In this document: piece by piece, positions 3,886 to 64,000 of the stretch | Numbering within the stretch: the first letter of the stretch is position 1 | Layout: each line of letters begins with the position of its first letter | Source: Erodium maritimum | Lineage: Eukaryota > Streptophyta > Magnoliopsida > Geraniales > Geraniaceae | Length of the DNA: 64,000 nt | Reading direction: 5' to 3' | Assembly (NCBI GenBank): GCA_963921825.1 | Contig: OY997588.1 | Span: 128,557,203-128,621,202 of the forward strand | The notes under the pieces: generated by a model | What the model was told of the DNA's origin: nothing | Database searches by the model: none | What the model saw: the letters and a program-made list of their open reading frames with translations, nothing else | Position numbers and translations under genes: made by a program

Positions 3886-3897
3886 AGGGGGGTAGAT

Positions 3898-13590: not shown

Positions 13591-14022
13591 GCTTCAACAA
13601 CTTTCTTAATGAAGTATTTTATGAAGAAAAAAATATATTTTACTTGATTTTCAGTGAAAATAAAAGGAATTAACTTATGTTAGGTGATAACTAATCAACG
13701 AAAATATACAGTCATGGAGTTACTTTTGCAGAAGCACTATGATATAATTAAGAAAATCTATGAGCATGACATATACATACACATCCTTGAAATTCACAGA
13801 CAAAGATTTATCCCAAATACCATTTTTAAGATTCTATTAATTAGTTTGAAATAGATAAGTTAATATATCCTGGTTCATAAATATTATCATATAACATGTT
13901 ATATCTGTGTTACCATAAGAAATATCAGTGCTAATGAAAACAAGCTGAGATTGCAATATTAGTATATCATATATATAACTATGATCCTTCTCTTCATTTT
14001 GATCTCTCTTACTTGATGCTTC
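13591..14022. other. AT-rich spacer and bHLH 3' flank
   Basis: AT-rich, no coding signal on either strand. It contains the 3' untranslated region of the minus-strand bHLH gene; several AATAAA-like strings are present but none could be chosen as the poly(A) signal. Confidence 0.5.
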
Positions 14023-24533: not shown

Positions 24534-24541
24534 CAAATACC

Positions 24542-25440
24542 ATTTGATTTTTCCAAAATACCAATAATACCTTACAAAAACTGATTTATAAAAATAAAAT
24601 CTTAATTTTTGAAATAAAATATGATCTTTATAAATTTGAATAAAGAATTTTCTTTTTATATATATATTTTTCTAAAAAGAATGATTTTGATGGCAAATTT
24701 TAAAAATTTAAAGATAAATGAGGGATAATTTTGATACTTTATTTTACTAATTGTATGGTTTGAAGAACCAATTACATGTTTTTGAAAACTTTGACTGTGA
24801 GGAGTATTTTTTTACTTTTTACACTAACAACAAAATAATGATTAGGTAATGAAGTAAAAATAAATGCTTGACAGAATATAATATTATAAAAAAAATAGCC
24901 TTGAATATTATATTACAAATCAATGTTTACGAGTATATGTCAACATCCATTACCATTTATCATAAAAACATGTCAATCACTTTGGCAAATCAATTATGAT
25001 CGATATACCTTACATTCTTCAATTCGTGGCTTCAGCTCATCTATGTAACCTTCCGTTCAATTCCGTCGAACAAAGGTCGCGAAATACAAAGATACATAGG
25101 CTTCGCTGAGTTGATATCGCCGTTTTATTATATATATAGAGAATGAAGAAGATGACATCTCCCATCTTATTTCTTTTAATTAGTTTATGATTTTAAATAT
25201 TTAAATTTGGGAAAATGACACATAACCCTGGCTAACTATCACCGTTTTTCACATCCCCCAAACTATTTTTTGCGACATGTAACTCCTTTAACTTCTATTT
25301 TTTTTCACTTTAGTCTAACGGTGTTAAAATTTGGATAGATACAACCATGTGCAAAGCACGTGATGTTTTATTTTTATTAAATGACATAACTATCCCAACA
25401 AAAAAAAATTATGAATATTTTAATTTAGTTTTTAGTTTTT
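24542..25440. other. AT-rich intergenic sequence
   Basis: Strongly AT-rich with no coding signal. The stretch 25,215-25,400 (opening gacacataaccctggctaactatcacc) has the look of a common dispersed plant repeat, but no ends or target duplication could be placed. Confidence 0.4.
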
Positions 25441-43881: not shown

Positions 43882-44240
43882 GGTATAGAATCGAAGCCAA
43901 AGGTACGGAACCGGGTGTATTTTGGGAATAAAATTATTCTTTCAAGTTTCAAGTTTAATTCTATGGGAAATATGTTTGTTTTGGTGGATGAACAAGCAAA
44001 TGGAGGACCAATTTCTAAAAAGGCCTTATGTGAACTTGTATTTTGAAAAAAAAAAAACTCTCACCCTATATGTATTTTGAAAAAAAAGGCCTTTAAGATC
44101 CTGAAGTCAACAAAAGTTGGTCAATGCATATACTACCCTTTTGTATTTGGTCAAAATCCCTAAAATGAGGGTGAGCCCCCAATTTCCCCAGCCCCTAATT
44201 TCCCCAGCCCTCGTCCCCACCATTTTCAGACCAAAGCACC
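43882..44240. other. Left edge region of the MULE
   Basis: Includes aaaaaggccttatgtgaacttgtattttg and a second tattttgaaaaaaaaggcc at about 44,070, which may be near the MULE's left end. No target duplication or long terminal inverted repeat can be matched because the right end is outside the window. Confidence 0.35.
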
Positions 44241-44340
44241 ACCTCTAAAAATTGCACCACCGTACCGAGCGCCGTCCACCGACATCCACCGGACCGACCG
44301 TGTTGTCAACCTCTTCGTGTCTGTCATTGAAGCAAGGTCC

Positions 44341-44864
44341 AAGTAAGTTCAATTCATCCTCATCCTCTTCCAATTTCGTACATTTCAGTTATAGGTTTGA
44401 GTTGAACTTCAAATTGAGGATGGGGGAAAACGATTTTGAGTGGTATAAAATAAGTGAATGGATTGGAATGGAATGGGGGAGCACAAACTGTAAATTGGGG
44501 ATGGTCAGACAAGCTGAACCAGTAGGAGTCGCACGGCCAGATTAGGTTGAAGACACACCCCGCACGGTCGTATGTCACCGTGCGGCCAGGTTAGGTAGAA
44601 GACAAAAACCGCACGGTCGGATGTAGCCTTGCGGCACCACGCATATGACATACCCGTGCGGTGGCATATGACATACACGGGTAGTGACCGCACGGCCGTA
44701 TACAGCCGTGCGGCAGCGCTTGTCACTGCCCGTGCGGGTGGTTAGCCACCGTGCGGCCAGTTGCATATCCAACACAATTTGTAATATACTTTGTGAGGTT
44801 AATTGTTGTTATTGTTACAGGAATGTGTGAGGTTTTGTAATTGTTGTTTTTTTTTGTTACAGGA
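44341..44864 (+). other. Probable 5' leader intron of transposase gene
   Basis: A donor-like CAA/GTAAGT at 44,341 and an acceptor TTGTTACAG just before the start codon (AG at 44,861-44,862; a second copy of the acceptor lies near 44,820) suggest an intron in the leader. Array I lies inside it. Confidence 0.5.
44529..44757. repeat. Motif array I (CCGCACGG/CCGTGCGG)
   Basis: About eight exact and three variant copies of the 8-mer in both orientations, 16-35 bp apart, upstream of the transposase start codon, inside what looks like a 5' intron. Each copy has two CpG and two CCG/CGG sites. Confidence 0.9.
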
Positions 44865-47292
44865 ATGGGTAGAGTTGCAATACGTGTTACTTACGGTGGA
44901 GAATATAAGGTAGAGGGTGGCAAGTATAACTGGAAATCAACAAACGAGGAAGTTTTTAGTCTTCCTGTTGATGATAGTACAACATTGAACACATTGAAGC
45001 AGCGCATTTATTCTAGGGTCGGGGTGAAGGAAAGTGAGACAAAATTAAAACTTAGTTACGTAGTTAAGGGCTTTGAAGGAGGATTACCGCCAGAGGAGAT
45101 CATTGACAATGTTAGTCTTCGGTGTTTTGTAATGGAGAACATTATTTTAGAATCTAGGGTCGCCTTACGTGTAGAACTGATCAAGAAAGATACCATTGGC
45201 GCCGTAGCTGAAACGGTGGAAGTTGAACAGGGGGTGCATTATGTTGCAGTTGAGAATGCTGAACATGGAAATGGTGGGCGGGATAATTTTTTTGACGTTG
45301 ATATTTGGAGTGGTGCAGGTGTTAATGAAAACCTAGTTATTCGGCGGCGGCGACCTAGAGAATGTGATTCGGATGCAGAAGCATCATCTCCTACGCCACC
45401 ACCGGTAAGCTTGGATGAAGAGAACGGTCAAATTGTGGAGTATGTTGCTCGGAACCAGCAGTTTCCGTTAGATACAGTCGATCCAGAACAAACCAGGATC
45501 GGATTTAGGGATGGGTCAGATTTAGTAGTTGGCAAAAAGTTTCGTTCGGGACAAGCAAGCAGTGATGATGTATCTGACAGAGCTTCAGCAGAAGAAGAAT
45601 TTTCGGATACGCCGTGATAGATCAAACAAGGAATTATACGTTGCAAAATGTGTTAGTGATAATTGTGGATGGAGAGTGCGTGCAGCAAAAGATCGGGGAT
45701 CGAATACTTTCTCCATCAGAACTTATGAGTCTTTGCATACTTGTCAGACTAGTGATCGGAACTCCCTAAAAGGTTGTATGACAACGGAACAAATTGCTTG
45801 TATGTTGGCTATAGAATATGCTGGAATGAAAAAGATTCTCAGACCTTTGCTTATTCAAGACAATTTGAAGGGACGGAGTTTAGGCTTTTACAAATACTAG
45901 AAATGCTGGAAGGCAAGAACACTGGCGTTGATTAAACTTGTATGGGATCCTGAATTAAGTTATGGATTACTCCCTCTTTATTTGGAACGGGTTTGAAAGC
46001 ATAACGAAGGCGCAGTAACTCATTTGGAGGTGGATGAACACAGTAAATTTAAATATGTTTTCGTAGCATATCGGCCATGCATTACTGGATTTAACACTGC
46101 TTTAAGAAAGGTGCTCGCAGTAGATGGTACGTGGTTGAAAACAAAGTATAAAGGGATTATGATAATTGTTACAGGTCAAGATGCTAATCATCACCAATAT
46201 CCAGTTGCATGGGCTGTAGTTGACTCGGAGAACAACGATTCATGGGGATGGTTCTTCGAAAAGTTGGGGTCGTTGATCGCGGACGAGGAGGACTTGGTTA
46301 TAATTTCGGATAGGCATAAAAGTATCATCCATACAGTGGCGGCCCTCTACCCAACTGCTAAACATGGTCATTGTAGGTGGCATCTGACCCAAAATGTCAG
46401 AGATTATCATGGGGGTCAGCCGAAAGACAAATTGTCGAGTTTGTTTGAAAAAAATGATGATGCTTACACAGTGGAGAGGTTCCTTTCCAAGTTCGAAAAG
46501 TTGAAAGCAGTGTACCCCAAGGCAGCGCAATATCTGGAGACAACGAACATAGAACGTCCTCAGTGGGCGAGACCTTACTTCGAAGCCGCTCGGTACACTC
46601 TCATGACCACGAACGGTGCTGAGTGTATCAACAATGTAATACTAGAAGTGAGACAGTGGCCTATTGTAGAGCTGTTAAACGCCATGCAAAGACTAGTTAG
46701 TCATTGGTTCATGCTTCGTTTAGATGTGTTGGACAAAATACCTCATTCCCAAGCTGTAACTCCAAAGGTAGCGAGTATCTTGTCAAGTAGGAATGATCTA
46801 GTGAAGGAAATCCGAATAATACCAATGAACCTACACGGCCAGTATTGGGTTAATAGTGAAAATAGTGACGTCTATGTTGATTTGGGGATGAAGCGGTGTA
46901 GTTGTCGGGTGTTTGATCTCGATATAATTCCTTGTGAACATGCCTTAGCGTGTTGTGAGCATGCTCGGGTAGAGATATATTCCTTGTGCTCAAAATATTA
47001 CACGGTAGAAGCATGGGCTCTGGCATATACTGGAACCATTTACCTAGTGTTGCGAGAATCAGAGTGGAATCTTGATGAGGTTTCGCCTGAAGGTCGTATA
47101 GAGGTTCTCCCTCCAGATTATGAAGTGAGACACGGTAGACTAACTGAAAGAAGAATCCCTTCAGCAGGTGAGGTGCCAAGAGCGGCTCAAGCGGCTCCGA
47201 AGCGTCCCCGAAAATGTGGAAATTGTTCTAATGTTGGTCACAACAAACGCACATACCCTGCGCTTGCTTCTGCTAGAGCATCTACTGTGTAA
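44865..47292 (+). pseudogene. MURA-type transposase (mudrA)
   Basis: Three segments. Segment 1 (44,865-45,617, start MGRVAIRV) is a PB1-like N-terminal domain with an acidic linker. A frame change near 45,545 leads into segment 2 (to 45,900), the Mutator DNA-binding zinc domain (NFRIRRDRSNKELYVAKC, CGWRVRA, HTC). TAG at 45,898 and TGA at 45,994 break the link to segment 3 (46,024-47,292), the transposase core. Counting from 46,024, the DDE residues are Asp34 (LAVDGTW), Asp96 (IISDRHKS) and Glu200 (NGAECINN). It continues with a SWIM zinc finger (CSCRVF...CEHALA) and a C-terminal knuckle CGNCSNVGHNKRTY whose last Cys is Tyr. Catalytic residues survive but the gene cannot make a full protein. 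Confidence 0.95.
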
Positions 47293-47474
47293 GGATTTTA
47301 ATTTCATTATGCTACTATTTGGTGACTGACGGACAATATATGTATTTGATTATGCTACCATTTGGTGACTGATGATGCTAGATGTATTTCATTATGCTAC
47401 TATTTAGGTTTGATGTGAATCGTTAGGTGTTAGTGGTTGCATTGTTCTACTGTTCAGGGTGTAATGCATTTTTT

Positions 47475-47677
47475 CGTGCGGTCATCATTGGTCACCGTGC
47501 GGTCGAACAGAGAGCAATACTCCTGCACAAGATCTGTCTGCACGGTTGGTTATGGTGTTGTGCGGCTGATCCGTGCGGCACCATACCTACCCGTGCGGCA
47601 ATGAAATATGTGCTGAAATGTTCTCTGATCAACCGTGCGGCACTATAAACACCCGTGCGGCCAGATGACCACACGGT
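47475..47677. repeat. Motif array II
   Basis: Five exact copies of CCGTGCGG and several variants within 200 bp downstream of the transposase gene, mostly in one orientation. Confidence 0.9.
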
Positions 47678-47879
47678 GTTTATACGATACTGTTTTACCA
47701 TAAACATGACGACATTCAATCAATAACTAGCCATGTAAAGATCAGAATAAAACAACTTAAACGTTCAACATGTTCCACGTTAAACACCAACCCTACTTAT
47801 TATAACAAAGACTCACACGTATTGCAAAATGTGTGGTCTTTGTTTCCGAGACAAAGTCTGGCACATATTACCTAAACCC

Positions 47880-48112
47880 TAAACGGATTACCAACGCGCT
47901 GGACCCATGTCCTCACCCGTGAATGACAAGATGTAGAACTCAAGATTGTCAAGCTCTTCCACGACTTTGTTAGCTTTCTGCATGTCTTCCTCTGACCATT
48001 CTGTTGTATCGCCCCCCCCGGACCTCCTCCCGAACCTCCTCCCGAAGTTGGACCGCCTTCGGAAGGATCCGTAGGAGAGTTGTCTTGATTTTCTTGAACC
48101 TCCACATCATCT
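47880..48112 (-). pseudogene. Accessory ORF A (unknown)
   Basis: Minus-strand Gly/Ser/Pro-rich start (SEGGPTSGGGSGGGPGG) and, after a frame change in a run of eight C/G bases at about 48,012, a charged helical-looking segment WSEEDMQKANKVVEELDNLE ending ...GEDMGPARW before a stop near 47,885. No clear ATG in frame. A TATA-like cctataaaag lies upstream at 48,203-48,211. No family recognised. Its shape and position match the other accessory ORFs of this MULE. Confidence 0.4.
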
Positions 48113-48202
48113 CACCATTGTTGTGTGTAGTCATTGCAGAATTTATGATTATCTCATTAATAGAATAGATGAAGTGAGAAAAGTGAGTGAACACTCACAC
48201 TC

Positions 48203-48211
48203 TTTTATAGG
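48203..48211 (-). promoter_or_regulatory. TATA box of ORF A
   Basis: Minus-strand ctataaaaga about 90 bp upstream of the first readable codon. Confidence 0.5.
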
Positions 48212-48348
48212 CGAGGTTGTTAGTGTGGTTAGTGGGTTCCATTAAATGTGGGGTGGTGGTTAGAGGGTTCCATTAAATGTGGGGTGGTTAAGGTTCAGAA
48301 TTTATGGTTTATGGGGAATTGAGTGTAGGTTTAGGGTTTGTCGTATGA

Positions 48349-48622
48349 CCGCACAACTGGATGTCATAACCGCACAGCTGGATGTCAGACCCGCACGGCT
48401 CCCGGTTAAGGTCGCACGGTTGATTAAGATGACCGCTTGGCAGTGTAAGTAATGTGACCGCGCGGTCAGGTGTTGGTCACTTAAATTGATGAAGTGAGAT
48501 ATGTGATGCCGCACGACGTATTCAACGTCGCGCGGTTGTAAAATCATGTAGCCCGTGCGGGTATATTTATAGACTGCATGGGTGAGAATGATAACCGCAT
48601 GGTCATGTTATTGATCGCACGG
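48349..48622. repeat. Motif array III
   Basis: About eleven sites, two exact (CCGCACGG, CCGTGCGG) and the rest one- or two-base variants such as accgcatgg, gtcgcacgg and accgcgcgg. The changes are mainly C to T or G to A, as expected from decay of methylated CpG. Confidence 0.85.
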
Positions 48623-48688
48623 TTGAATAGAAACAGATGCAAAAATTACTTTCAAAGTTGAAATCCATTATTATTGAAGTCGATGACA

Positions 48689-49007
48689 TTACATGGCAGA
48701 CAGTTGGTTAATAATACTCTCATCATTGTCTTTCACCTTAGCCATCCACTGAAGCCAACGCTGGAACCAAGCAGGCTCCTCGACCGAATCGAAGTCATCC
48801 TCAATCCCGTATGTCCAACCAGGCCTTTCAAACGGGGGTCCAGGACATGGTGCGTCTTTCTCACGCATGAGTCGCTCAATGACTTTCAACCGCTCACATG
48901 GGTTAAGGTGGTAGGCCCCAACGCGGTTCGGGTACTCGTACTATGTTTCCGACAGCTTCGTGTCGCCTCCATCGTTGCTCCAGACGAGTATCGTGGTTTG
49001 GGTCCAT
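48689..49007 (-). pseudogene. Accessory ORF B (copy 1, unknown)
   Basis: Minus-strand coding stretch starting MDPNHDTRLEQ at 49,007, directly after an intron acceptor (ttgtgacag). After a one-base frame change near 48,920 it reads IERLMREKDAPCPGPPF, an acidic DDFDSVEEPAWFQRW segment and a C-terminus SIINQLSAM with stop at 48,689. It shares these blocks with copy 2 at 50,552. No known family recognised. The Trp-Phe-Gln motif after an acidic run is the most conserved part. A TATA box lies near 49,186-49,194. Confidence 0.6.
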
Positions 49008-49185
49008 GCTGTCACAAACATAATATGGTTACACCACTTAAACAAACACACACATATATAGAAAACGATAATTCATGAACACAAGTCGAATACCCGTGAA
49101 GAAGAAGAGCTTGATGTCGTGTGGATGGAACGAAGTTAGTGAAGAGGTATGCTTTGAGACGAACATAATGGGTCTCATCAACGTC

Positions 49186-49194
49186 ATTTATAGA
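49186..49194 (-). promoter_or_regulatory. TATA box of ORF B copy 1
   Basis: Minus-strand tctataaatgacg, the counterpart of the box near 51,131 in front of copy 2. Confidence 0.5.
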
Positions 49195-49382
49195 AAATTA
49201 GTAAGGGTTTAGGTTAGGGTTTAGGCATTAATGTCGCATGGGGAGTTGTTGCCAAGACATTGATGGGTAGGGAGTTGGGGTTTAGACATTAATATCGCAT
49301 GGGGAGTTGTTGCTAAGACATTAATGGGTTCGGCCTTCAATGGTTGACTCATTACTGTTCAGTCCATATGGTAGGTAAATGC

Positions 49383-49550
49383 CCGTGCGGCATATACTTA
49401 CACCCGCACGGGTGCCGCATGGGACCGATATTAGGGTTTCTCACCCGTGCGGCTGAAAGTAATCCTTCATCAATGTCTGGCCGCACGGGTGAGAAACCCT
49501 AATATCGATCCCATGCGGCACTCGTGCGGGTGTAAGTATCTACCGCACGG
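49383..49550. repeat. Motif array IV, a 71-bp inverted repeat
   Basis: Left arm 49,383-49,453 and right arm 49,480-49,550 around a 26-bp spacer; only a few mismatches. Each arm holds CCGTGCGG-type motifs at both ends and in the middle, and the string gatattagggtttctca. Confidence 0.93.
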
Positions 49551-49629
49551 TTCAGTCACAGACCCAAAATTTGTTCCCTATGTGCTTGTTTTAAGACATT
49601 AATTTTGTTACTACCTACTACCCACCAAC

Positions 49630-49770
49630 CCAACCAAATGATATGGGTTAGGGTTTATAGGCTATGGGTTAGGGTTAAGGTTTATATCCTATGGGTTTTG
49701 GATTAGGGTTTAGGGTCTAGGGTTTAGGGTTTAGTGAGTATGGTTTAGGGTTCAGTCATTAGGGTGTCGG
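49630..49770. repeat. Telomere-like TTTAGGG repeats
   Basis: Imperfect units of the plant telomere heptamer (tagggtttagggtctagggtttagggttta at 49,704-49,733, with scattered copies from 49,630). Interstitial and short. Confidence 0.85.
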
Positions 49771-49909
49771 GAATATATTCCTTCCATAAAGTTGGTTACA
49801 TCAAATCGATGTGAAAAGGAATATATTCTTTCTCATATTCTATAAGTAACAACAATGGAACTACATAATACTCACACACTCATAATCCACTACATCATCA
49901 CTTCATCTA

Positions 49910-50302
49910 ATGTCGAGGAAAGACTACTCTCCTTCCTTCGACTCCTCATCGTATGGAAGCGATATTTGGTTTAGATACGGATGTGGTCGTAATACTCCAC
50001 CACAAGAACACTATCCATCTCCGGCCCAAGAACACCCAGAAGATGAAGAGCAATGAGAAGAAGAGCCATCGGAAGAAGAAGAGCCTTCCGTAGGCGACTA
50101 TCCAGTCAAAGGAGAAGGAGAAACTGAAGTATATGGTAGCAATACAGTCAAAGGAGAAGGAAAAACTGAAGTATATGGTAGCGATACAGTCAAAGGGCTT
50201 GGAGATACTAAACAATATGGTAGCGGTGAAGTTGAAAGCGGTGATGAGGCAACATCGGCCTTCAATGGCCCACAAAGGGAAGCCCCTAAGAAGAAAAAGT
50301 AA
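49910..50302 (+). pseudogene. Accessory ORF C (repeat protein, unknown)
   Basis: Plus-strand frame of 130 codons starting MSRKDYSPSFDSSSYGSD, acidic, with three tandem units built on TVKGEGKTEVYGSD (about 15 residues each) and a Lys-rich end REAPKKKK. One in-frame TGA at 50,054-50,056 separates a 48-residue N-terminal part from the repeats; the rest is open. No family recognised. Lying between two ORF B copies, it is probably another gene of this MULE. Confidence 0.5.
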
Positions 50303-50364
50303 CATTTGCGAGGGCTTGTACTTGTAAATTCCTTTTAGACCTGTAAAATAGGTAGAAAACCTGA

Positions 50365-50480
50365 CCGTACGGTTGGTTATCAAAACCGCACGGGTATGTA
50401 AGTAGACCGCACGGCTCAATAATAGGCTTTGGGTCCTATGCATTTCTTGTACACGCACTGGTGTGTTTACGACCGTACGG
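50365..50480. repeat. Motif array V
   Basis: Two exact copies (50,386 and 50,407) and two CCGTACGG variants. Confidence 0.85.
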
Positions 50481-50551
50481 GCAGAGAGCATGTGGAAAAC
50501 AACTATCAAGTAAATTAAAAGTTATATTTATTAAGCCGAAAACCAAATACA

Positions 50552-50946
50552 TTAAGTAGCCCGAAGAGTGTTAATAAGACTCAACTCGATTTCTTTGTTC
50601 CGAGCCATCCACTCTACGTAACCCTGGAACCAAGAAGGCTCCTCGAAAGAATCAAGCAGGTCATCCTCCCTTATCGAAGGGTGTGCTTGAAGAGGGTTTG
50701 CACCGTAAGGGGGTGAGGGACATGGTAGGTGCTTCTCTTGCATGAGTCGCTCAATTTGTTCCAAGCGCTCATTTGCTTCTTTGAGTATGCGGTAGTACTC
50801 GATCGACCTGTTGGTTCTGGTGCTTGATACAGCCGTTCGGGAACGCGAACTATCCTGCCATCCCTGATTCCAACTATGGTTCCGGCATTCTGCTGTCGCC
50901 TCGAGAGGATAAAGCCAAGAAGAAGAGGATCGCGGTTCGGTTCCAT
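50552..50946 (-). pseudogene. Accessory ORF B (copy 2, unknown)
   Basis: Minus-strand gene with start MEPNRDPLLLGF at 50,946 right after an intron acceptor (tttgggacag), then IVRVPERLYQAPEP, a frame change near 50,820, and RLEQIERLMQEKHLPCPSPP, DSFEEPSWFQGYVEWMA and SLINTLRAT, stop at 50,552. It matches copy 1 block by block. A leader exon and intron upstream (51,010-51,060) are shared too, with a TATA box near 51,131-51,137. Confidence 0.6.
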
Positions 50947-51128
50947 CCTGTCCCAAACATATACACGCTTACACAACAAAACCAACTAACACAACAACCA
51001 AATGATAATGCAAGAACATAAGTCGAATACCCGAGAAGAAGAAGAGGTTGATGTCGTGTGTATGAGATTAAGTTAGTGTAGAGGGAAGCTTTGACGAGGG
51101 CAGTGAAGATAATGGGTCTGCTTAAGCC

Positions 51129-51138
51129 CATTTATAGG
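51129..51138 (-). promoter_or_regulatory. TATA box of ORF B copy 2
   Basis: Minus-strand cctataaatggg, conserved in place relative to copy 1. Confidence 0.5.
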
Positions 51139-51315
51139 CATAGTGACATTAATAGGCATGCGAAGTTGTTGTTGGGACATTAATAGGCATTCAGAGGTGT
51201 TGTTGGGACATTAACAACATTCAAAGGTGTTGTTGGGACATTCATTGTGCCAACAATACTAATATATTTGAATTCAAAATTCAAATATTGGACTTTCTGT
51301 GGACAAATTGAACGA

Positions 51316-51515
51316 CAACGTCAGGGTTGACAGCAAACCGTGCGGGGGTACACACAAACAACGTCGGGGTTGACAACAACCCGTGCGGTCAACCTACGGC
51401 CCTCACGGGTGCACACAAACAACGTCGGGGTTGACAGCAAATCATGTGGGCAGAGATCGGCCTGCACGGATGCCCACAACCTAGGTCAGGGTTGACAGCA
51501 AACCGTGCGGCCAGA
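51316..51515. repeat. Tandem ~60-bp repeat carrying the motif
   Basis: Four copies opening caacgtcggggttgacagca followed by aaccgtgcgg, starting near 51,316, 51,359, 51,420 and 51,479. Confidence 0.85.
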
Positions 51516-51706
51516 AGCATATCCCCACATGGATGCCCAGCACCCTGTGCGGTCAGATACAGGACCGCACGCTTCATCATAGAGTATTACACTAAACATA
51601 ATTCTGGGCGCCCGGGTGTGCTTATTGCCGCACGGGTGACCAGTTGCATTTCCACACTAATGTAGCTACCACCTTCACCGCACGACAAGTATACTAACCG
51701 CACGAC
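51338..51706. repeat. Motif array VI
   Basis: About eleven sites, four exact, upstream of ORF B copy 2 and downstream of the ULP1-like gene. Variants again show C-to-T type changes (catgtggg, cctgtgcgg). Confidence 0.88.
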
Positions 51707-52034
51707 GAAGTGCATTTCAACATTACATGATATGGAACTCTTGTCATTCAGCACAAGACATAAGTATCAAAATAGAAACACAATTACATTCAAATCCTTC
51801 ATGTCCAAAACCTAAGTACCAAATATTCCAAAACCTAAGAACCACATTGTACCACAATTACATACACATGCTTCATGTCCAAAACCTACAAAAGTAGTTG
51901 CCAGTTCGACATGGCCTCAATGGCGTTCTTTTTCCGATACTGCTTCATAATGGTGTCTCTTAAGTAATCGCCGAACTCCTTTCCCACAAACTTTAGCTGG
52001 ATCATCTTCAGTGTGCATATCCCACTGTCGCCAC

Positions 52035-53710
52035 TGTTAGTCTTAGTGCCCGTAGTTCAATCATAAATGTCCAAATGTATATATCATCATTAGCAATAAG
52101 ATTAAAGCGGCTTTCTATTACTTATGTGTTGGAGTAATATATCGATGTGATTTCTGATCTATGCCCACCATGCGAATAAAACCATAGATCGAGATGGATC
52201 ACACTCGATGGGTCCCTAGTCAATAAAGCTTCACTAGAAGCGACTAGTATGAAAGATGGCTCTTCATGGCTTACGTTCTGTTAGTCATTGGAATGGGATT
52301 CCGGAGTCTGATCATAGATATCATGTGGGACATGATATTGGACGACCCGCCCTGAATATGCGCCATAGATTGAGTCATTAACATATTCAGTGTCGTAGCT
52401 TGTCATGTATCCTTAGACCAAGGAGTCTTTGTGATCACTATGCAGTCAACAACTAAGTTTGACCTGAGCCTAACGTTGTCCGTAACAGGGCTTCCATAAC
52501 GGTCAGGATTGGCTTGGGGACGGGTTGCATGAGTGACACGAAAGACGGCTAAGGGATTTATCCCTCATACTGAGGTATGGGAAAGATATCGGTTCTCGGC
52601 CGCTTGATCGAGAGTGACTGAAAGAATAGCATGGCCATGCACATGATACTAGGTATCATATATTCAGTCATCTCACATATCAAGGAACAGTGATTGAGAA
52701 TAATAAGGATGACGGCTCTATGCCTTATCTCAATCAGGATATCGGAGATAAAAGGATAATGACAGGGACGACGGAAATGTTAGAATCGATTGGTTCGATT
52801 CGCTATGTAGTGTCAGGCAATACTAAAGTCTCGTTAGTTGCCACTTATATAGGATCAAGTAAAATGGGATTTTACGTTGATCTATCGACATGCATAGACC
52901 TAAGGGTCACACCGAAGGATGAAACTCATTGACACATTTATGGAGAATGGCCAAAAGAGAGTTGTCTCGGGACATGACCAAAACTGGGTTTTGGGTCATG
53001 TGCCCGTAAGTGAATAGGACATTACGGATCAAGACAAGGCTTGGAGTCTTGGGATTGATCGCGTTGGATAATGTTGGACATTTCCGGTATGGAAGGCTTG
53101 GAGGCGATGAGCACGTCACGGGACCTCGTTGGGAATGGCCATGGGCCATGTTCCAAGAGGCCCATGAAAGGCCCATGCAACCAAGGCCCATGGAACTAAT
53201 TAATCAAGTCTTGATTAATTAGTACTAAGTAAGCAAGACAAGGATTAAGGTGTTGGTGATTCACCACCTAACCCATCTTGTCTTGCCATACTTAGCACCA
53301 TACTTGTCTTACTTCACACCATGCTTCACACCTTACTTGTCCTTGATGGTTGTTGATGGTTTAAGTCATCTTTTTCCTACAACAAATCACAAGACAAGAA
53401 TAGAAACACAACTTCTCTCCCTCTCACACTACAATTTCGAGTTTGGCACTTTTCTTCCCTCTTGTTGTGTTCTTGAGTCATCTAAAGAAGAACTACGTGG
53501 CTTTGATTCCAATGGGATACGTAGGCGTCTTGGAGACTCAAGCCGATCATCGTTTCTTTGGTGTTCTCTTCCTTTTCTTGAACTAGTTGGTAAGGAAACA
53601 TCCATATTGTTTATTCTCTTGTGTATCTAATATTTGGTAGTGTTCTATGACATGGTCTCGAGTTATTTCCGCTGCAAGTATGTGTTCATACCTTCCATCG
53701 AGACCCAACA
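52035..53710 (+). repeat. 5' LTR of young copia
   Basis: 1,676 bp. The U3-like part has a perfect 14-bp inverted repeat (53,195-53,208 and 53,210-53,223) and a cluster of GGCCCAT/ATGGGCC motifs at 53,135-53,194. Short ORFs here are repeated exactly in the other LTR and are not genes. Confidence 0.97.
53135..53194 (+). promoter_or_regulatory. GGCCCA (site II-like) cluster in LTR
   Basis: Five copies of GGCCCAT or its complement within 60 bp. This is the core of site II elements bound by TCP factors in plant growth-related promoters. Repeated at 60,406-60,465 in the other LTR. Confidence 0.5.
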
Positions 53711-53711
53711 G

Positions 53712-53723
53712 TGGTATCAGAGC
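53712..53723 (+). other. Primer-binding site (young copia)
   Basis: TGGTATCAGAGC, one base after the 5' LTR; initiator-Met tRNA type. Confidence 0.93.
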
Positions 53724-55256
53724 CATGCTACCTTCGGGATTCACAAGAGAACTTTCGGTTTTGCTTGCTAGTTTCGGTTTTGCATGTTAATTTGCTAAAT
53801 TGTTTGATAACATGTTTTAAATTCTTGTTTATGGGTTTAATGCATGAAAAATGAATTTTTGAAAAGTTTATCAAATCTGGATTTTTTGAAAATTTTTGAT
53901 TTTTCGGGTCTCGGGAGCGGGACTCTCGGGGAGCCGAAACCGGGACCGAACGGGGCTCCGTTGGACGGAGCTAGGCCAAGCATGACCATTGGATGGTCAA
54001 TATGCCGAGCTAAACCGTTTTGTTAGTCATGACGAGTTTGGAACCGTCTTGATGAACTCAAAAATCAAATGTTCAAAAGTTTCAATTTTGAACGGTTTCG
54101 ATAAACCGAGTATCAAAATTTTTTGAAACTTGGCAATTAATTAAAACCGAAAAATCACATATGTTTGATAACATGCTTGTTTGATAACACGATGTGTGAT
54201 GTGATGTTGGCATGGTGTACATAATAGCCCCGAGTTTGATTTAATTATTTATCGCTTTTCACGGCCTGCGAGCCGTTAGAGTTAGCGTGTAATTATTTTT
54301 TCGAGGTGTGGTCATCGTACCACTTATTTGTAATATTTATTAATTCCCGACCTGCGATTCGTGTATTAAATTGTAATATTTTACTCAAGACGAAGAAAGG
54401 GCGAAAAGGTCTTTTGGTGGCTTCTCGGGTTTTGACATCGGCTTGGAGTCGGTGGAGCTCAAGAAGCTAGTGGGAGTTAGTTTAGTGGGCTATTATGTAC
54501 ATATTTAACGCTTTATGCTTGGTTTAGTTTTTGCATGATCATTTCTATGTGTTTTAGAATTGCATGCTTAACTTAATTTACCGAGCATATCACCTCACAT
54601 GCAAAGATAAAATTGGTTTTAATCATTGTCTGTGAGCCCTTAGAATCGTCATTACATTGGATGTAGTTGACGGGTTCGAAGGAAGAATTACATTGGATGT
54701 AATTGGAGGCATCATTACATTTGGAATGTAGTTGATGTGCTCATCGCATCTAGGATGTGCCAAAAGTTTAAAACACAACCGGACAAGTAAAAACGGGTCA
54801 TGTCCGATACCTCCCAATTATCAACACCTTACTACCTCCCCGTCCTATGGGTGTCGTGCGCATTAGCGGAGCACCCATGGGAAAGCGGGGTAGCAGGTTT
54901 GGACGACATGTGTAGGTGTCGTGCGCATTAGCGGAGCACCCACATAGTGACGGGCCATAGTTGAAAATTGGTGGACCCGACTACGATTCTCAGCCTGAGG
55001 TTGAGCTAGGGTATTAGATAGGGTAAGCCGTGTACATGAGTACATACCCTAGCCAAGAGTCACATTGGATGTGATTGGATGGAGTCCTACCTACATAGCT
55101 CGATTAAGTGGTGAGCATTAGTTCAGCTTAATCGGGTGAATCAAGGATCTTGGTTTTAGGTTCTAAAGGTTTAGAATCAATTGGTTGGTGTTTGAACTTG
55201 ATCTTCATAAAATTTATTCAGTTTACTGATTATATTTTGTTTGTCGTGTAGATCAA
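53724..55256 (+). other. Long copia leader with paired hairpin repeats
   Basis: 1.5-kb untranslated leader. At 54,650-54,740 an imperfect ttacattggatgta unit repeats three times. At 54,847-54,878 and about 54,908-54,953 a 27-bp string (gtgtcgtgcgcattagcggagcaccca) occurs twice; each time the flanking bases pair (ATGGGTG with CACCCAT; GGTG with CACC), so both can form hairpins with the same loop. They may be packaging or dimerisation signals; this is inference. Confidence 0.6.
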
Positions 55257-56084
55257 ATGACAAGTACTTCAGCGAACAATAGTAGTTTGTCACTAAAAAC
55301 CATTCTTGATAGGATCAAGCTAAGTGGGACAAACTACTTGGATTGGGACAGAAACTTGAGGATAGTCCTCAAATTCGAGCGCAAAGAATATGTCCTAGAC
55401 CAGGCTATCCCTGAGGAGCCAGCTAATAATGCCATTAGGGCCGTTAAGGATGCATACCAAAAGCACCTTAGCGATTCTATAGATGTGGCATGTATTATGC
55501 TGGGCTGCATGGAGTCTGATCTCCAAGACCAGTTCATGGAGTACTCTGATGACCCCTATACTATGATGGGGATCATAAAGGGTATGTTCAAGGAAAGGGC
55601 ACGTATCGTGAGATACAATGTCCTTAATGAACTTCTCTCCTGCAAAATGTCAGCAGGAGTCTCCGTGGGTCCTCATGTCCTAAAGATGAAGGGGCATCTC
55701 GAACATCTTAATCGACTGGGTCTTAAGATAGAGAACGAGATGGTAGCGGATGTGGTTCTGCGTTCCCTTCCTCATTCATATGCTACGTTCGTCATGAACT
55801 ATCATATGCACGATATGGACAAGACCATTTCAGAGTTGCATGGAATGTTGGTAACTGCTGAAAAGAACGTCAAGGATCAGGGATCCAAGGATGTTCTGAT
55901 GGTCAGACAGGGAAACAGTTTCAAGAATAAGGGAACTGTTAGTGGTAAGGGCAAGGCCCCTATGCACTTGGCAGGAAAGATGAGGCATCCGAAGCGTCCT
56001 AACCCTCCTAGGACCGGGGAGTCCTCAAGGAAGGGGAAGGATGTCGAGAATGTCTGCTTCTACTGTCAACAGCCTGGTCACTAG
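55257..56084 (+). pseudogene. copia gag (young element)
   Basis: Capsid protein of 275 codons starting MTSTSANNSSLSLKTIL, the usual plant copia gag start with KLSGTNYLDWDRNLR. It ends in the zinc knuckle CFYCQQPGH, where the following Trp codon is TAG (56,082-56,084) and the fourth knuckle residue, normally Cys, is Tyr. The frame continues into pol. Confidence 0.93.
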
Positions 56085-59000
56085 AAGAAAGATTACAGGA
56101 AGTTTCTGGATGATCTGAAGAAGGGCGGTGGGACTGTGCCTTCATCAGGTATTTTCTTTATAGAGCTAAATCTCACTACTTCCAAAGATTCATGGGTATT
56201 GGATACCGGGGCTGAATCTCACATTTGTACTAATGTGCAGTGGCTGGAAGGTAGGAGAAGCTTGAAGAAGGACGAGGTGGACCTCAGAGTGGGCAACAAG
56301 ACTAGAGTTGTGGCGACTGCTGTAGGATCCATAAGTCTTCTTTTGCCAAGTGGGCTAGTTTTTGTTTTGAACAATGTATATTGTGTACCTACTTTCAGTA
56401 GGAATATTGTATCTATTTCTTTGTTGGACAAGGAAGGATACAATTTTGATGTTGGAAATGGGATTTTCAATATTTTATGCAATGATATATTTTATGCTAG
56501 CGCCAAAATGGTTGGAGGATTGTACATATTGGATATGGATAACAATGCCTCAAGCTCTATATATAATGTAAATACCAAGAGGTCTAAGTCCAATGATTTA
56601 GACCAAACTCTTTTATGGCATTGTCGTTTAGGCCACATAAACGAGAAACGCATATCAACACTTCACAAGTGTGGACTTCTTAGTCCATTCGAATTTCATT
56701 CGATTGATAGATGCGAATCTTGTTTGATGGGAAAACTGACTAAAGCGCCCTTCATCGGTCGCGGTGAAAGGGCGGGTGACTTATTGGGGCTAATACACTC
56801 GGATGTGTGTGGACCAATGAGCACACTTGCCACACTTTCCAGGAGGGGTTTTAGCTACTTTATCACATTTACTGACGACTTCAGTAGATATGGTTATGTC
56901 TATTTGATGAGACATAAGTCTGAAGCTTTTGATAAATTCAAAGAGTTTAAGACTGAAGTAGAAAACCAGCTCGGGAAAAGTATTAAAGCACTTCGATCAG
57001 ATCGAGGTGGAGAATACTTGACCACAAAGTTTTTAGATCATCTAGCAGAAAGTGGGATCCTTTCGGAATGGACTCCTCCCGGAACACCACAATTGAATGG
57101 TGTGTCCGAACGGAGAAATCGGACTTTATTGGATATGGTCCGGTCCATGATTAGTGGGACTGATCTCCCATTCTCTTTTTGGGGTTATGCTCTGGAGACG
57201 GCCGCATTCATTTTGAATCGGGCTCCGACGAAGGCTGTGGAAGGGACACCATTTGAGAAATGGCGCGGGAGAAAGCCCGTTTTGTCCTTCCTGAAGATTT
57301 GGGGTTGCGAGGCTTATGTGAAACGTTTAGTTCCGACTAAGCTCGAACCAAGATCTGATAAATGCACTTTCGTTGGGTATCCCAAAGAAACAATGGGGTA
57401 TTACTTCTACAAACCCAGCGAGAACACGGTGTTCGTCGCTCGGGGTGGGGTCTTTATGGAAAGGGAGTTTATTTCCAAAGACGTCAGTGGGAGGGCTGTA
57501 CATCTAGAAGAAATTCAGGATGGTACAGATCCAACTGATCCACTAGACAACCCTGTAGAAGAGCCTGAGATGGTCGTAGAGCAAGGACCAGTTCCTGCAA
57601 CAATTCCAGAAGGTCCAAGGCGATCTGAAAGGGTTAGTCGTCCACCTCCGAGATATGGTTACTTTGTGTCTGGAGGTGACAGTGAGCTTGTGGTGGATCA
57701 CGATGATCCAGCTACATTTCAGGAAGCTGTGGACGGACCCGACTCTGAGTTATGGCTGGGAGCCATGAGGGAGGAAATGCAATCCATGTCGGACAACCAA
57801 GTCTGGGAACTGGTTGATCCAATCGGTGGTGTAAGAACCATCGGATGCAAATGGATCTTCAAGGTGAAGATGGACATGGAAGGCAACCCTCAGACCTACA
57901 AAGCCCGACTGGTGGCGAAAGGTTATAGGCAGATCCAAGGGATTGACTATGAGGAAACCTTTTCCCCAGTGGCTATGGTCAAATCTATCCGAATTATTCT
58001 TGCCATAGCTGCATATCACGATTACGAGATATGGCAAATGGATGTCAAAACCGCTTTCCTAAACGGAAATTTATCGGAGGACGTTTATATGTCTCAACCC
58101 GAAGGTTTTGTCGATCCGAAGAATAAGGGAAAGATTTGTAAGTTGTTGAAATCCATTTATGGATTGAAACAAGCTTCTCGGAGTTGGAACCTTCGTTTTG
58201 ATGAAGCTATAATTGGATTTGGCTTTATCAAGAATGAAGATGAACCTTGCGTTTACAAGAAGGCAAATGGGGGTATGATTACCTTTCTGGTGTTGTATGT
58301 CGATGACATACTACTCATTGGAAACGGCATCCCAACCTTGCACGAGACTAAAGCTTGGTTAGGGAAGAGTTTCTCAATGAAGGACTTAGGCGATGCTGCT
58401 TATATCTTAGGGATTAAGATATATAGAGATCGCACCAAGAGGGTCTTGGGTTTAAGTCAAAGCACCTATGTGAACAAGGTATTGAGTAGGTTCTCAATGC
58501 TTGATTCCAAGAAAGGACTCTTACCCGCACGTCATGGCGTTCATCTCAGCAAGACTCAGTGTCCTAAGACACCTGATGAGCTGAAAAGGATGATGCGAAT
58601 CCCATACGCTTCGGTGGTAGGATCGATCATGTATTCCATGATATGCACGAGACCGGATGTCTCATATGCCTTGAGTTGTACCAGCAGACATCAGTCTAAC
58701 CCTGGTGAGGAACACTGAATAGCGGTCAAAGCGATTCTCAAATATTTGAGAAGAACTAAGGACGCGTTTCTAGTGTACGGGGGAAAAGATGATTCTGAAC
58801 TAGTTGTTAATGGATATGTAGACGCTAGTTTCCAGACAGATCCAGATGACTTTAGAAGTCAGTCAGGATATGTGTTCACGCTGAATGGCGGAGCTTTCAG
58901 CTGGAAGAGCGTGAAGCAAGACACCGTCGCTGACTCCACGACAGAGGCCGAGTACATAGCGGCTGCAGAGGCGGCCAAGGAGGCTGTGTGGATTAGGAAG

Positions 59001-59291
59001 TTCACGGCAGGGTTGGGTGTAATCAAAAACCCATCCAGCCCGGTGAACCTATTTTGCGACAACACAGGGGCTATTGCGCAAGCTAAAGAGCCCAGATCGC
59101 ATAACAAATCCAAACATGTACTGCGGCGATATCACCTCATCAGAGAGATACTAAACCGAGGCGATGTGAAGATCACCTATATTGCAACTGATGATAACAT
59201 AGCCGACCCGTTGACTAAGGCACTATCGTTGCCTAAACATGAGAGGCATGTAAGGTCAATGGGAATAGATTGGAGTTTAGATTGGAACTAG
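56085..59291 (+). pseudogene. copia pol (young element)
   Basis: Same frame as gag. Protease WVLDTGAESHIC; HHCC finger HCRLGHINEKR with CESCLMGK; integrase core with D, D and E in FSRYGYVYL-type and SDRGGEYL segments; reverse transcriptase with LYVDDILLIG; RNase H with YVDASFQTD, SQSGYVF and DNTGAIAQAK. A TGA at 58,716-58,718 replaces a Trp codon (EHW in relatives). Apart from the two Trp-to-stop changes the frame is open to 59,291. Confidence 0.95.
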
Positions 59292-59305
59292 GGCAAGTGG
59301 GAGAT

Positions 59306-60981
59306 TGTTAGTCTTAGTGCCCGTAGTTCAATCATAAATGTCCAAATGTATATATCATCATTAGCAATAAGATTAAAGCGGTTTTCTATTACTTATGTGT
59401 TGGAGTAATATATCGATGTGATTTCTGATCTATGCCCACCATGCGAATAAAACCATAGATCGAGATGGATCACACTCGATGGGTCCCTAGTCAATAAAGC
59501 TTCACTAGAAGCGACTAGTATGAAAGATGGCTCTTCATGGCTTACGTTCTGTTAGTCATTGGAATGGGATTCCGGAGTCTGATCATAGATATCATGTGGG
59601 ACATGATATTGGACGACCCGCCCTGAATATGCGCCATAGATTGAGTCATTAACATATTCAGTGTCGTAGCTTGTCATGTATCCTTAGACCAAGGAGTCTT
59701 TGTGATCACTATGCAGTCAACAACTAAGTTTGACCTGAGCCTAACGTTGTCCGTAACAGGGCTTCCATAACGGTCAGGATTGGCTTGGGGACGGGTTGCA
59801 TGAGTGACACGAAAGACGGCTAAGGGATTTATCCCTCATACTGAGGTATGGGAAAGATATCGGTTCTCGGCCGCTTGATCGAGAGTGACTGAAAGAATAG
59901 CATGGCCATGCACATGATACTAGGTATCATATATTCAGTCATCTCACATATCAAGGAACAGTGATTGAGAATAATAAGGATGACGGCTCTATGCCTTATC
60001 TCAATCAGGATATCGGAGATAAAAGGATAATGACAGGGACGACGGAAATGTTAGAATCGATTGGTTCGATTCGCTATGTAGTGTCAGGCAATACTAAAGT
60101 CTCGTTAGTTGCCACTTATATAGGATCAAGTAAAATGGGATTTTACGTTGATCTATCGACATGCATAGACCTAAGGGTCACACCGAAGGATGAAACTCAT
60201 TGACACATTTATGGAGAATGGCCAAAAGAGAGTTGTCTCGGGACATGACCAAAACTGGGTTTTGGGTCATGTGCCCGTAAGTGAATAGGACATTACGGAT
60301 CAAGACAAGGCTTGGAGTCTTGGGATTGATCGCGTTGGATAATGTTGGACATTTCCGGTATGGAAGGCTTGGAGGCGATGAGCACGTCACGGGACCTCGT
60401 TGGGAATGGCCATGGGCCATGTTCCAAGAGGCCCATGAAAGGCCCATGCAACCAAGGCCCATGGAACTAATTAATCAAGTCTTGATTAATTAGTACTAAG
60501 TAAGCAAGACAAGGATTAAGGTGTTGGTGATTCACCACCTAACCCATCTTGTCTTGCCATACTTAGCACCATACTTGTCTTACTTCACACCATGCTTCAC
60601 ACCTTACTTGTCCTTGATGGTTGTTGATGGTTTAAGTCATCTTTTTCCTACAACAAATCACAAGACAAGAATAGAAACACAACTTCTCTCCCTCTCACAC
60701 TACAATTTCGAGTTTGGCACTTTTCTTCCCTCTTGTTGTGTTCTTGAGTCATCTAAAGAAGAACTACGTGGCTTTGATTCCAATGGGATACGTAGGCGTC
60801 TTGGAGACTCAAGCCGATCATCGTTTCTTTGGTGTTCTCTTCCTTTTCTTGAACTAGTTGGTAAGGAAACATCCATATTGTTTATTCTCTTGTGTATCTA
60901 ATATTTGGTAGTGTTCTATGACATGGTCTCGAGTTATTTCCGCTGCAAGTATGTGTTCATACCCTCCATCGAGACCCAACA
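59306..60981 (+). repeat. 3' LTR of young copia
   Basis: 1,676 bp, the pair of 52,035-53,710, preceded by the polypurine tract gggcaagtgggagat. Confidence 0.97.
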
Positions 60982-63900
60982 GCCACGACTAGCAAAATAT
61001 ACATCGGTAATGTTAAACATTAAATAAATTGTGTACCTATGCAAATTAAACGGAGGAAATTTCATACTTACTGTTTTGTCTGATGTACATCCAGGACCCT
61101 CAGGTAGGTGAAAGGTTGCTGGTACAAAATCTTGTTCTCCTCGGCCAAGTATCCTGAATGTAACATCATCCTCGGAATCATGCGGGCATACGACCTAATC
61201 AACAACTCTAGCTCAGCATCCGATGTCCACCACTTGTGGCTGTCGTAGACATTAATGTGCCTTCCTGCTAAGTTCACCTCTACCAATATCCATGACCAAC
61301 TGCCTGAGCCCTTCATGTGCTGTAATGGAAAGTATACCTTCTGCAAGTTCTTCCAGTTTTTCCTAAACTCGTGTGGACATGCACCAAAAGCATACTCCAT
61401 CAACGCAGTCGAAGGGTTACCCTGCACACCTGACTCGAACTCCAATCCGCATAGCTCGTGGAACCAACAATCCAGTACAGAAGCGTCATGATCAGTGAAA
61501 ACATTCCGATACATACGTTGTTGTTTCCGTCTGCCATACAATTGATCGTCCATTTGCTGTGTACAATGAAAATCAGTAACCAAGTACAGATTAGTATACA
61601 AATGCATTTTTAATCATAAATTTTAAGAACAGTTAAACAAAATGTTATACAATAAATATAGTATACGAACCTCACGGGATACTGTTGATCCACGTGTCAA
61701 GAGGGTCTTGAAATATTCTTTACCCCTTGTGCCGTACGGAGTCGTGATTTCCTCGAACCCAACGAATTTGTCCAACACTGTGGCATGTTTCTTAGCACCA
61801 CTACGATACTTGTCGTACGGATCCCACATTGTCTGCGTCTCCATTTCTTCGTGGGAGACCTCACATAATCTCTTCCTCTTTCTTGAACTAGGACCCTCTA
61901 TGAATCCCTCTGGCACGCGTACCATGATGTGGACAAGAGAGTTCTCGAGAGCTGCGTCAGGCGGTGTAGGAGTTACTTGTACGTCGTCCATCCAAGATTC
62001 ACTTGACTCTTCCCCAACTACTGCACCTTCAAGATTAGGTTCTGACCAGGAACTCGGTGTGCTCGTCCCCGACTTTGTCGCCTCTGCCGACTCTTCCACT
62101 CATGTAGAGGGCTCCCATGGATGAGCTTGTACCAAAGCTTGAGGCTCAAACACTGCCCCCTCTACCGGTCCTGCTTGTTGTACCAGGTCCTTTAGCACAG
62201 ACTGTACCACCTCGTCTTCCGGTACTCGTGCAAGAGCAAACTCACTTGCTCCTCCAGATGCGACATCACAGTCTACAGGTTCCCCAGTACCACCAGTAGA
62301 CTCCACTTCCACTATTTGTCTTGAACCGCCTACAACTGGACCGGGAGGCCTTGACTGTGTACCATCATCTGCTCGACACGGTCGAGATCCGGTGTCTGAT
62401 TGTTCGGCACGGTCACGGGCAGCGGCGTTGGTGCGAAGTATCCTAAGGACCTCATCGATTTGAGTCCTTAACTCTGTAAATTGTCCTTCAGCCCATGTCC
62501 GCATCTTTCCCATTTCAGCTTTAACAGCTCGGATTTCTTCTACGACAGCTGATTGATCCACCGGTACGGGCTCTCTGACATCTTCCCGTATAGGGTCAAC
62601 CCGTACTTCTTCTCTTTCGGATGTCTCCTCGACCGGCGGTCGAAAGCTCCCAGGAAAATCTACTCCTCTATTTGGCTCTTCAGCAAGCGACTGAGCTGCA
62701 GGTTCCGGCTGCACTCCCTCATCATCCCACTGAATGGATCCTCCACTCTCCAAAAATGCAGACAGACGATCAATGTCGGAATTCGGATGATCTTCTGGTA
62801 ATACTCCGATATTCTGAATCCACGGGAGTTCCATCTCCACTGCCGTCGGGACGAGGACACTGTTGGCCACCTGCACCTGCATGGACATAACAATTACACT
62901 ACATTTTTGTGGCCGAGCTACATCAAACTTAGCTAAATCAGAATACCAAATTAACATTTTTTTACCTCAACTTTTGCAAGTGCTTTGGTGACCTCTTCTG
63001 CAGACGGCGGCTTGGACCACTTCAGAGACCATTTGAATAATTGTGGATGCTCCCCCGTGTACTGTTTATCTATGCAGGCCCACAATTTTTCGACTTCTGG
63101 CATACACTTGAACGCCAATATTTGTGTAACATACATAGTCATTCATAAACCCATCATTCATTTATATATTATTTTGCGGATAATAAAATTATCGTTAATT
63201 ACTATTGTACGTACCGTTAACACATGGAGAAAACCGCAAATGGTCCAGGTTGCACCACCTCTTGAAGTGGCGTACGCATCATACTTTGCCTTCAAATCTC
63301 GCATGCAATCCCTCCTCAGCCAATCGAAGGCTACATACTCCCATGGGTACTTGTTGAACATCTCGAGGTTATCCGCTAACCCCATCCAACTATCACAGAC
63401 CATTTTATCTCTTTTTCCACTTGGTACTAATGCATCTGAGACGAAGAGAAGTTGAGCCAGTTTGCATATGTCTAGATCTGGGGCTGACTTATTCCGTCGC
63501 TCAAGCCGAGTAGTCACCAGTTGGCCCAACTTTGCCTCCAACATCTCAGTCGACACACGATCAATGTCTTTAAAATGTGTGTTCTTCAACGATGTGGACT
63601 TGAATTGTTGTTGGAGCGCTTCATCTCCAAGGTTGGGTTGACTGCAATTCAACCCAGTTATAAGCGCAAAGTCCTTAAGGGTCAACCTGATCGGTCTCCC
63701 TTTGAACACAAACCACATCTCGGATGATCGTGGAATCTTCGTGCTCCTAGCCAAGAGGGCCCACGCAAGGTTGTTGGCGTGCATCCACTTTTTCGGGAAC
63801 TTAGTGAACCTCCCAAATGGACCATCTTGGAGCAGTTCAATTGTCAACTTGTCAGCTTTCAAGTCTTTCACCTTTGTTTCTAGCATTGTATAGTTGCACC

Positions 63901-64000
63901 TCTGATTGAGCCGACAGTGGAAGAACTGATCTTCTGTTAGTTTAGTTTCCAATCGTGGATACACCTGAGGTGGTTCCGAGGGAGTCGCAGTTGGAACAGA

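Follow-up and report, generated by a model that had tools for sequence, protein, structure and literature searches.

A Mutator-like element family of Erodium maritimum with motif arrays and a DUF1985-Ulp1 gene: a candidate VANC-like anti-silencing system

Why should one eight-base word be scattered between the genes of a single transposon and nowhere else in 64 kb of plant DNA? The question is raised by a 64,000-nucleotide stretch of the Erodium maritimum genome (763 Mb in 40 contigs), here called the window (contig C1, positions 128,557,203-128,621,202), which holds a Mutator-like element (MULE) with a transposase gene, a gene for a DUF1985-linker-Ulp1 protein and clusters of the 8-mer CCGCACGG/CCGTGCGG. 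The original prediction, made from the letters of the window, read the clusters and the DUF1985/ULP1-like protein as a system like that of the VANC proteins of Arabidopsis, and our analysis supports this reading through inverted-pair clusters that concentrate at the family, arrays in 30 of 30 loci examined and a confirmed DUF1985 domain. We put the probability at roughly 0.75 that this is a VANDAL-like MULE encoding its own anti-silencing factor, in which the DUF1985-linker-Ulp1 protein would bind the CCGCACGG arrays and lift silencing. The arrays are specific to the family, avoid open reading frames (ORFs), are conserved and phased, and differ from those of sister families.

Motif arrays in the window, the genome and the family

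Within the window, all 26 exact copies of CCGCACGG/CCGTGCGG lie at 44,560-51,635 (8, 5, 2, 5, 2 and 4 copies in arrays 1 to 6), against a mean of 0.59 and a maximum of 3 in 100 dinucleotide shuffles. About 26 copies in six clusters, in both orientations, between the coding stretches of one MULE and with no such cluster elsewhere in the window, is what had been described, and each of these points held: the clusters are at those places, the word stands in both orientations and all clusters are outside long ORFs. The estimate of about 45 sites including variants was right in that variants exist but somewhat low, since 24 further one-mismatch positions inside 44,400-51,800 (versus 23 in the remaining 56.6 kb) bring the total nearer 50. 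Each site is near-palindromic and has two CpGs and two CHG positions. The element had been taken to end at 51,706, which has to be corrected: it spans 44,005-65,310 in window numbering, 1,310 bp beyond the window end, with a Copia retrotransposon inside it and a seventh cluster (six exact copies at 64,130-64,834, adjoining the DUF1985 ORF) just past that end. These bounds were set by comparison with a well-preserved 14.0-kb relative (joined loci L045 and L046) and by the target-site duplication (TSD), identical 9-mers at both ends of the MULE, which measures 21.3 kb with the Copia insert and about 12.4 kb without it.

A single CCGCACGG is not rare in the genome (10,378 copies versus 8,050 for the reversed control word), so that the distinctive feature is clustering: inverted pairs with 8-38 bp between the words number 238 genome-wide versus 2 for the reversed word. 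For 46 of the 50 inverted pairs listed, from contigs C1 and C2, the distance to a transposase or DUF1985 locus of the window element's family (family 1) is at most 20 kb, as it is for 0.3% of random points, and none of the 50 adjoins a locus of sister family 2. Same-strand pairs (1,021 versus 281 for the control) are not family-specific; the first 100 listed comprise 47 by family 1, 45 with the spacing of a 34-bp repeat and 8 others. The proposed genome-wide enrichment is therefore borne out for inverted pairs, but not for the single word or same-strand pairs, and because inverted-pair clusters concentrate at the MULE family the motif is not equally dense in unrelated sequence. The 34-bp spacing is that of an unrelated GC-rich repeat which contains CCGCACGG, for example at C1:9,904,990 and C1:79,378,581.

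The transposase search returned 98 rows, which set lower bounds of 52 matches at 76-100% identity, two being parts of a single place, and 46 at 62-64%. In 30 loci around the best matches of those rows (the window copy and 29 relatives), CCGCACGG adjoins the transposase without exception, on both sides in 27 and on the 3' side alone in three (L021, L028 and L040). It occurs inside the matched transposase ORF in none of the 30, and the reversed control word has no copy across them. Relatives that share the DUF1985 protein and lack the arrays were accordingly not found among these loci.

The 14.0-kb relative gives the clearest view of how the sites are laid out. In the coordinates of the joined loci it occupies 1,059-15,104, flanked by a separate TSD of at least 9 bp, and its transposase and DUF1985 ORFs are open (transposase of 825 aa in L045). 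All 45 of its exact CCGCACGG copies lie in 6,998 bp of non-ORF DNA and none in the 7,048 bp of ORFs as we delimited them; those nearest to the ends are 504 and 632 bp away. This layout bears on the idea that the arrays are transposase-binding sites for end recognition, modelled on the subterminal repeats of Ac/Ds and En/Spm, an idea which draws on a transposase that has a MuDR-type DNA-binding domain and diverges between families together with the arrays. However, subterminal sites are expected to crowd the ends, whereas these occupy many intergenic parts over 14 kb and stop short of both ends, and we regard end recognition as quite unlikely.

A second alternative is that the arrays are neutral minisatellites, in which slippage spread the word and its copies multiplied along with the element. 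Some arrays are indeed true tandem repeats, with motif-bearing units that differ between copies (61 bp in the window; 21 bp and about 62 bp in L045/L046), and the GC-rich 34-bp repeat holds the word in an unrelated context. Against this, the 45 sites of L045/L046, none of them in an ORF, form 34 groups whose flanks are unrelated at a cut of 18 matches in 30, which 2 of 20,000 random pairs reached; laxer cuts give 28 and 22 groups, so that tandem duplication alone is insufficient to explain them. Moreover, the spacing between neighbours of different groups is phased: the 24 intervals gather near 20 and 42 bp, with R of 0.59 at 10.5 bp and a best period of 11.0, and the best-period value was matched by 4 of 2,000 uniform simulations (0 of 2,000 at the laxer grouping cuts). 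An earlier run on 27 intervals, including a few within one tandem repeat, had the same outcome. The motif columns are also more conserved than the spacers when three arrays are pooled, with divergences of 0.033 and 0.088 (Mann-Whitney p 0.0009; 27, 30 and 23 copies, after 3, 0 and 7 of the 30 loci were removed as poorly alignable); the motif and spacer values per array are 0.032/0.053, 0.032/0.117 and 0.036/0.088. The CpGs of the motif diverge by 0.029, 0.037 and 0.015 in these arrays and those of the spacers by 0.093, 0.096 and 0.022, the latter on just 12, 8 and 2 columns. We consider a neutral origin highly improbable, and judge both this and subterminal transposase sites less likely than an anti-silencing role.

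Sister families and the candidate binding proteins

Two sister families in the same genome carry arrays of other words. Between families the transposases are 56-57% identical and the DUF1985 proteins 44-49%, and the groups in the DUF1985 search (138 rows) match those of the transposase, at mostly 68-100% versus mostly 49-55% identity. No CCGCACGG occurs in the four family 2 loci read, 40 kb in all, or in the single family 3 locus (9.5 kb). The four family 2 loci have 5, 5, 5 and 9 copies of CCGATCGG and 5, 6, 5 and 7 of ACGGCGCC; the paired form of the latter, AACGGCGCC...CGGCGCCG, occurs 67 times genome-wide (control 0), by eye with many pairs at family 2 loci and a few that resemble unrelated GC-rich DNA. 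The sole family 3 locus read (L051, 9.5 kb, beginning within the transposase) contains a transposase gene and a DUF1985-linker-Ulp1 gene of its own, together with 18 copies of CAATCCTC; TCAATCCTC...CAATCCTC pairs number 361 genome-wide (control 1), with a spacing of 20-21 bp in 78 of the first 100 listed, where 16-26 bp was allowed. Foreign array words at the other loci counted number 0-2 each, except for CCGATCGG, with 4 in L051. For pairs of CCGATCGG the reversed control was unusable (1,403 versus 253), since the reversed palindrome is abundant, and these pairs were judged by location: family 2 loci account for 20 of the 50 listed and family 1 loci for none, and several of the remainder coincide, by eye, with family 3-type CAATCCTC pairs. 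An alignment of families 1 and 2, partly driven by the words themselves, sets CCGTGCGG opposite CCGATCGG at several sites of the 5' array, which is no more than a hint of position-by-position homology of the two families' arrays. A co-evolution of motif and DUF1985 protein had been proposed as a check, and sister families with diverged DUF1985 proteins do carry different arrays.

The same comparison helps to weigh a third alternative, in which an element-encoded or host transcription factor uses the arrays as promoter or enhancer sites and silencing is lost, if at all, as a side effect of transcription. The arrays adjoin element genes, and a passage of Hosaka et al. (2017; PMC5735166) weighs transcription activation as a path before arguing against it. 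However, arrays also stand between convergent gene ends (at 47.5 and 50.4 kb), and sister families in one host with different words do not fit a single host factor; we think this explanation unlikely.

Which protein, then, might bind the arrays? The transposase has the domains PF10532, PF03108, PF10551 (E 1.2e-22), PF00872 and PF04434. The DUF1985 protein (PF09331) does lie within the element's bounds, as had been proposed, and its Ulp1, linker and DUF1985 ORFs run along the minus strand at 61,068-64,048, opposite to the transposase. AlphaFold2 on the single DUF1985 sequence of the window gave a mean predicted local distance difference test score of 39.5 and a predicted template modelling score of 0.30. 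Since the matches of the Ulp1 part to solved structures are weak (best E 0.18), its catalytic site was identified by motif, as the xDCGx site which we take to be that of Ulp1. The cysteine is present in none of 24 family 1-type and none of 61 family 2-type sites, where Ser, Thr, Asn or Ile takes its place, and is kept in 7 of 15 other sites; these counts refer to the first 100 of 173 matches, with types assigned by the letters beside the site and not by location. The catalytic cysteine that an active Ulp1 SUMO protease would require is thus lacking at the family 1- and family 2-type sites listed.

In addition, small accessory ORFs of about 110-140 aa, partly paralogous, lie between the arrays (L045 4,940-9,813; window 47,891-50,968); most have relatives in family 2, and those scanned have no Pfam family above the cut-off. 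In the 9.5 kb of L051, which run from within the transposase onward, tblastn at E 1e-3 found no match to the family 1 small ORFs. Because L051 has arrays but no such match, the shared candidates for the binder are the transposase and the DUF1985-Ulp1 protein. Of the two recognisers originally named, the DUF1985/ULP1-like protein stands as a candidate and an accessory ORF has become less plausible.

Comparison with known anti-silencing systems

The closest counterparts are VANDAL21/VANC21 and VANDAL6/VANC6 of Arabidopsis. As described in passages of Hosaka et al. (2017; PMC5735166), VANC21 on expression causes sequence-specific hypomethylation and binds YAGTATTAY, a motif that is dense, often tandem-repeated and arrayed in a single orientation in non-coding VANDAL21 DNA; VANC6 acts likewise via DNA dense in AGTTGTCC/AGTTGTAC; VANC proteins hold DUF1985 and diverge more than the transposase; and the step of silencing removal that follows binding is stated as open. 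RNA-directed DNA methylation acts on the same non-coding VANDAL regions, according to a passage of Sasaki et al. (2023; PMC10398659). Like these elements, the Erodium MULE has a transposase and a DUF1985 protein and a short motif dense in its non-coding DNA, partly as tandem repeats, and its related families differ in motif and diverge more in DUF1985 than in transposase. Unlike them, it has small accessory ORFs and no DUF287 in the ORFs scanned, and its word contains two CpGs, whereas YAGTATTAY and AGTTGTCC/AGTTGTAC contain none. The element has every VANDAL/VANC sequence feature tested except DUF287 and single orientation.

DUF1985 and Ulp1 also occur together on the strand opposite the transposase in Kaonashi (KIU) elements, as passages of a review (PMC13317346) and of a grapevine paper (PMC2528002) describe them. 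The review passages present these non-terminal-inverted-repeat MULEs with an Ulp1 domain as Ulp1-carrying VANC genes and cite Sasaki et al. (2022) on eudicots, so that this kind of system is already known, and the Erodium case looks like a further example of it. What is unusual here is the CpG-containing site and an Ulp1 domain without its catalytic cysteine, which is replaced in 85 of the 85 family 1- and 2-type sites listed, a cysteine state taken from Erodium sites alone. The 2022 work of Sasaki and colleagues in EMBO J reportedly found that DUF1985, DUF287 and Ulp1 were gained and lost in eudicots, and motif sequence, density and helical periodicity are said to decide specificity. Other element-encoded proteins tied to lower methylation of their own element are En/Spm TnpA and MuDR MURA, the sites of MURA lying at terminal inverted repeats (passages of PMC10398659). 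Unlike in those systems, the Erodium arrays stand throughout the element and not at its ends. The sites of TnpA are at transposon ends.

From the match to the VANDAL/VANC sequence features we infer that the DUF1985-Ulp1 protein binds CCGCACGG and lifts silencing; both its role as binder and the removal of methylation on binding are drawn from Arabidopsis VANC. The DUF1985-linker-Ulp1 protein would bind the words arrayed across the intergenic DNA of the element, often on one face of the helix, and joint occupancy of many sites would single out the element copies, which would then lose their DNA methylation. Demethylation would in turn permit transposase expression and mobilisation of copies, and DNA with stray single sites would be spared.

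A number of observations count against this reading. The transposase, which likewise varies from family to family, is a possible binder. The array orientation of family 1 is mixed, unlike that of VANC21 motifs, with 17 of 18 words in one orientation in the family 3 locus, although a near-palindromic site may not require a single orientation. An array word is not always family-specific, CCGATCGG being common to families 2 and 3. Four of the 50 inverted pairs listed lie away from family 1 genes, one in a GC-rich repeat and three at a distance of 34 kb from a transposase of 76% identity. The conservation of the motif is individually strong in the second array alone: random 8-base blocks were equally conserved in 407, 3 and 519 of 5,000 draws per array and shifted masks in 14/229, 0/248 and 5/73, and with all rows kept the 5' array gives 0.080 for motif versus 0.092 for spacer, with 77/336 shifts. 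The dN/dS ratios of 0.59 for DUF1985 and 0.61 for the transposase, from one family 1 pair each, indicate weak constraint. The Ulp1 region is broken in L045/L046 as well as interrupted in the window copy, whose transposase is also split, so that the window copy would be a target and not a source of the factor. Finally, scans of the DUF1985 ORF and the three antisense Ulp1/linker ORFs, each as a single unspliced ORF, yielded no DUF287 match with E of 1 or below. This absence is not disqualifying for VANC membership, because passages of the review (PMC13317346) describe Ulp1-carrying VANC genes. The Erodium ORFs include such an Ulp1 part. DUF287 has reportedly been gained and lost among proteins of this type.

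The CpGs of the word permit an extension that we offer tentatively, as a doubtful possibility: the site may itself be a methylation target and binding methylation-dependent, which would make a self-reading switch. The protein would bind solely unmethylated (or solely methylated) CCGCACGG; once bound it would keep its sites unmethylated, and after its loss methylation would lock it out. The cysteine-less Ulp1 part would then be a docking part, for example for SUMOylated silencing proteins, and not a protease, and the sister families would have altered the centre of CCG-NN-CGG (CA in family 1, AT in family 2) alongside the protein. Because of the CpGs in the word, the sensitivity of binding to methylation can be tested directly, and the missing cysteine raises the question of what that domain does. 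Moreover, with two sister families that use other words in one 763-Mb genome, an anti-silencing role of the DUF1985-Ulp1 protein could have its specificity compared within one nucleus.

Features of the window copy and its surroundings

Table 1. Positions of the MULE and its parts, in window numbering.
Feature	Position	Strand	Basis or remark
Left TSD copy, 9 bp	43996..44004		right copy at 65,311, beyond the window
MULE, continuing to 65,310	44005..64000	+	homology to 14.0-kb copy, TSD, short imperfect terminal inverted repeats
Motif array 1, 5' of transposase	44529..44757		word counts; present in 27/30 loci
Transposase gene, three frames (44841-45617, 45529-45900, 45997-47292)	44841..47292	+	ORFs, Pfam domains
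Motif array 2, 3' of transposase	47474..47677		word counts, divergence analysis
Small accessory ORF, homologue of L045 ORF gA	47891..48259	-	tblastn
Motif array 3, 2 exact copies, others variants	48349..48622		word counts
Small accessory ORF in two pieces (gC/gE)	48692..49064	-	tblastn
Motif array 4, makes 71-nt inverted repeat	49383..49550		word counts
Small accessory ORF (gD), internal 42-bp repeats	49910..50299	+	tblastn, repeats
Motif array 5, 2 exact copies, others variants	50365..50480		word counts
Small accessory ORF, gF type	50555..50968	-	tblastn; no Pfam match above cut-off
Motif array 6, 61-bp tandem repeats	51338..51706		word counts, repeats
Ulp1 site usually holding catalytic cysteine, serine codon here	52006..52029	-	motif
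Copia retrotransposon in Ulp1 region	52035..60981	+	long terminal repeats; right end and 5-bp GCCAC on each side by inspection
Ulp1 (Peptidase_C48) part of DUF1985-Ulp1 gene	61068..61613	-	PF02902, E 2.9e-4
Linker ORFs of DUF1985-Ulp1 gene	61623..62966	-	no Pfam domain above cut-off
DUF1985 ORF, continuing to 64,048	63158..64000	-	PF09331, E 7.4e-21

The features of the window copy are collected in Table 1. The Copia insertion into the Ulp1 region appears recent, its long terminal repeats differing by one mismatch in 1,658 compared bases. At one of the relatives (L009, 4,642-7,511), ORFs that begin about 0.3 kb outside the element end resemble fragments of a phosphomannose isomerase gene. Elsewhere in the window, the kilobase at 24,001-25,000 is very AT-rich (20% GC).

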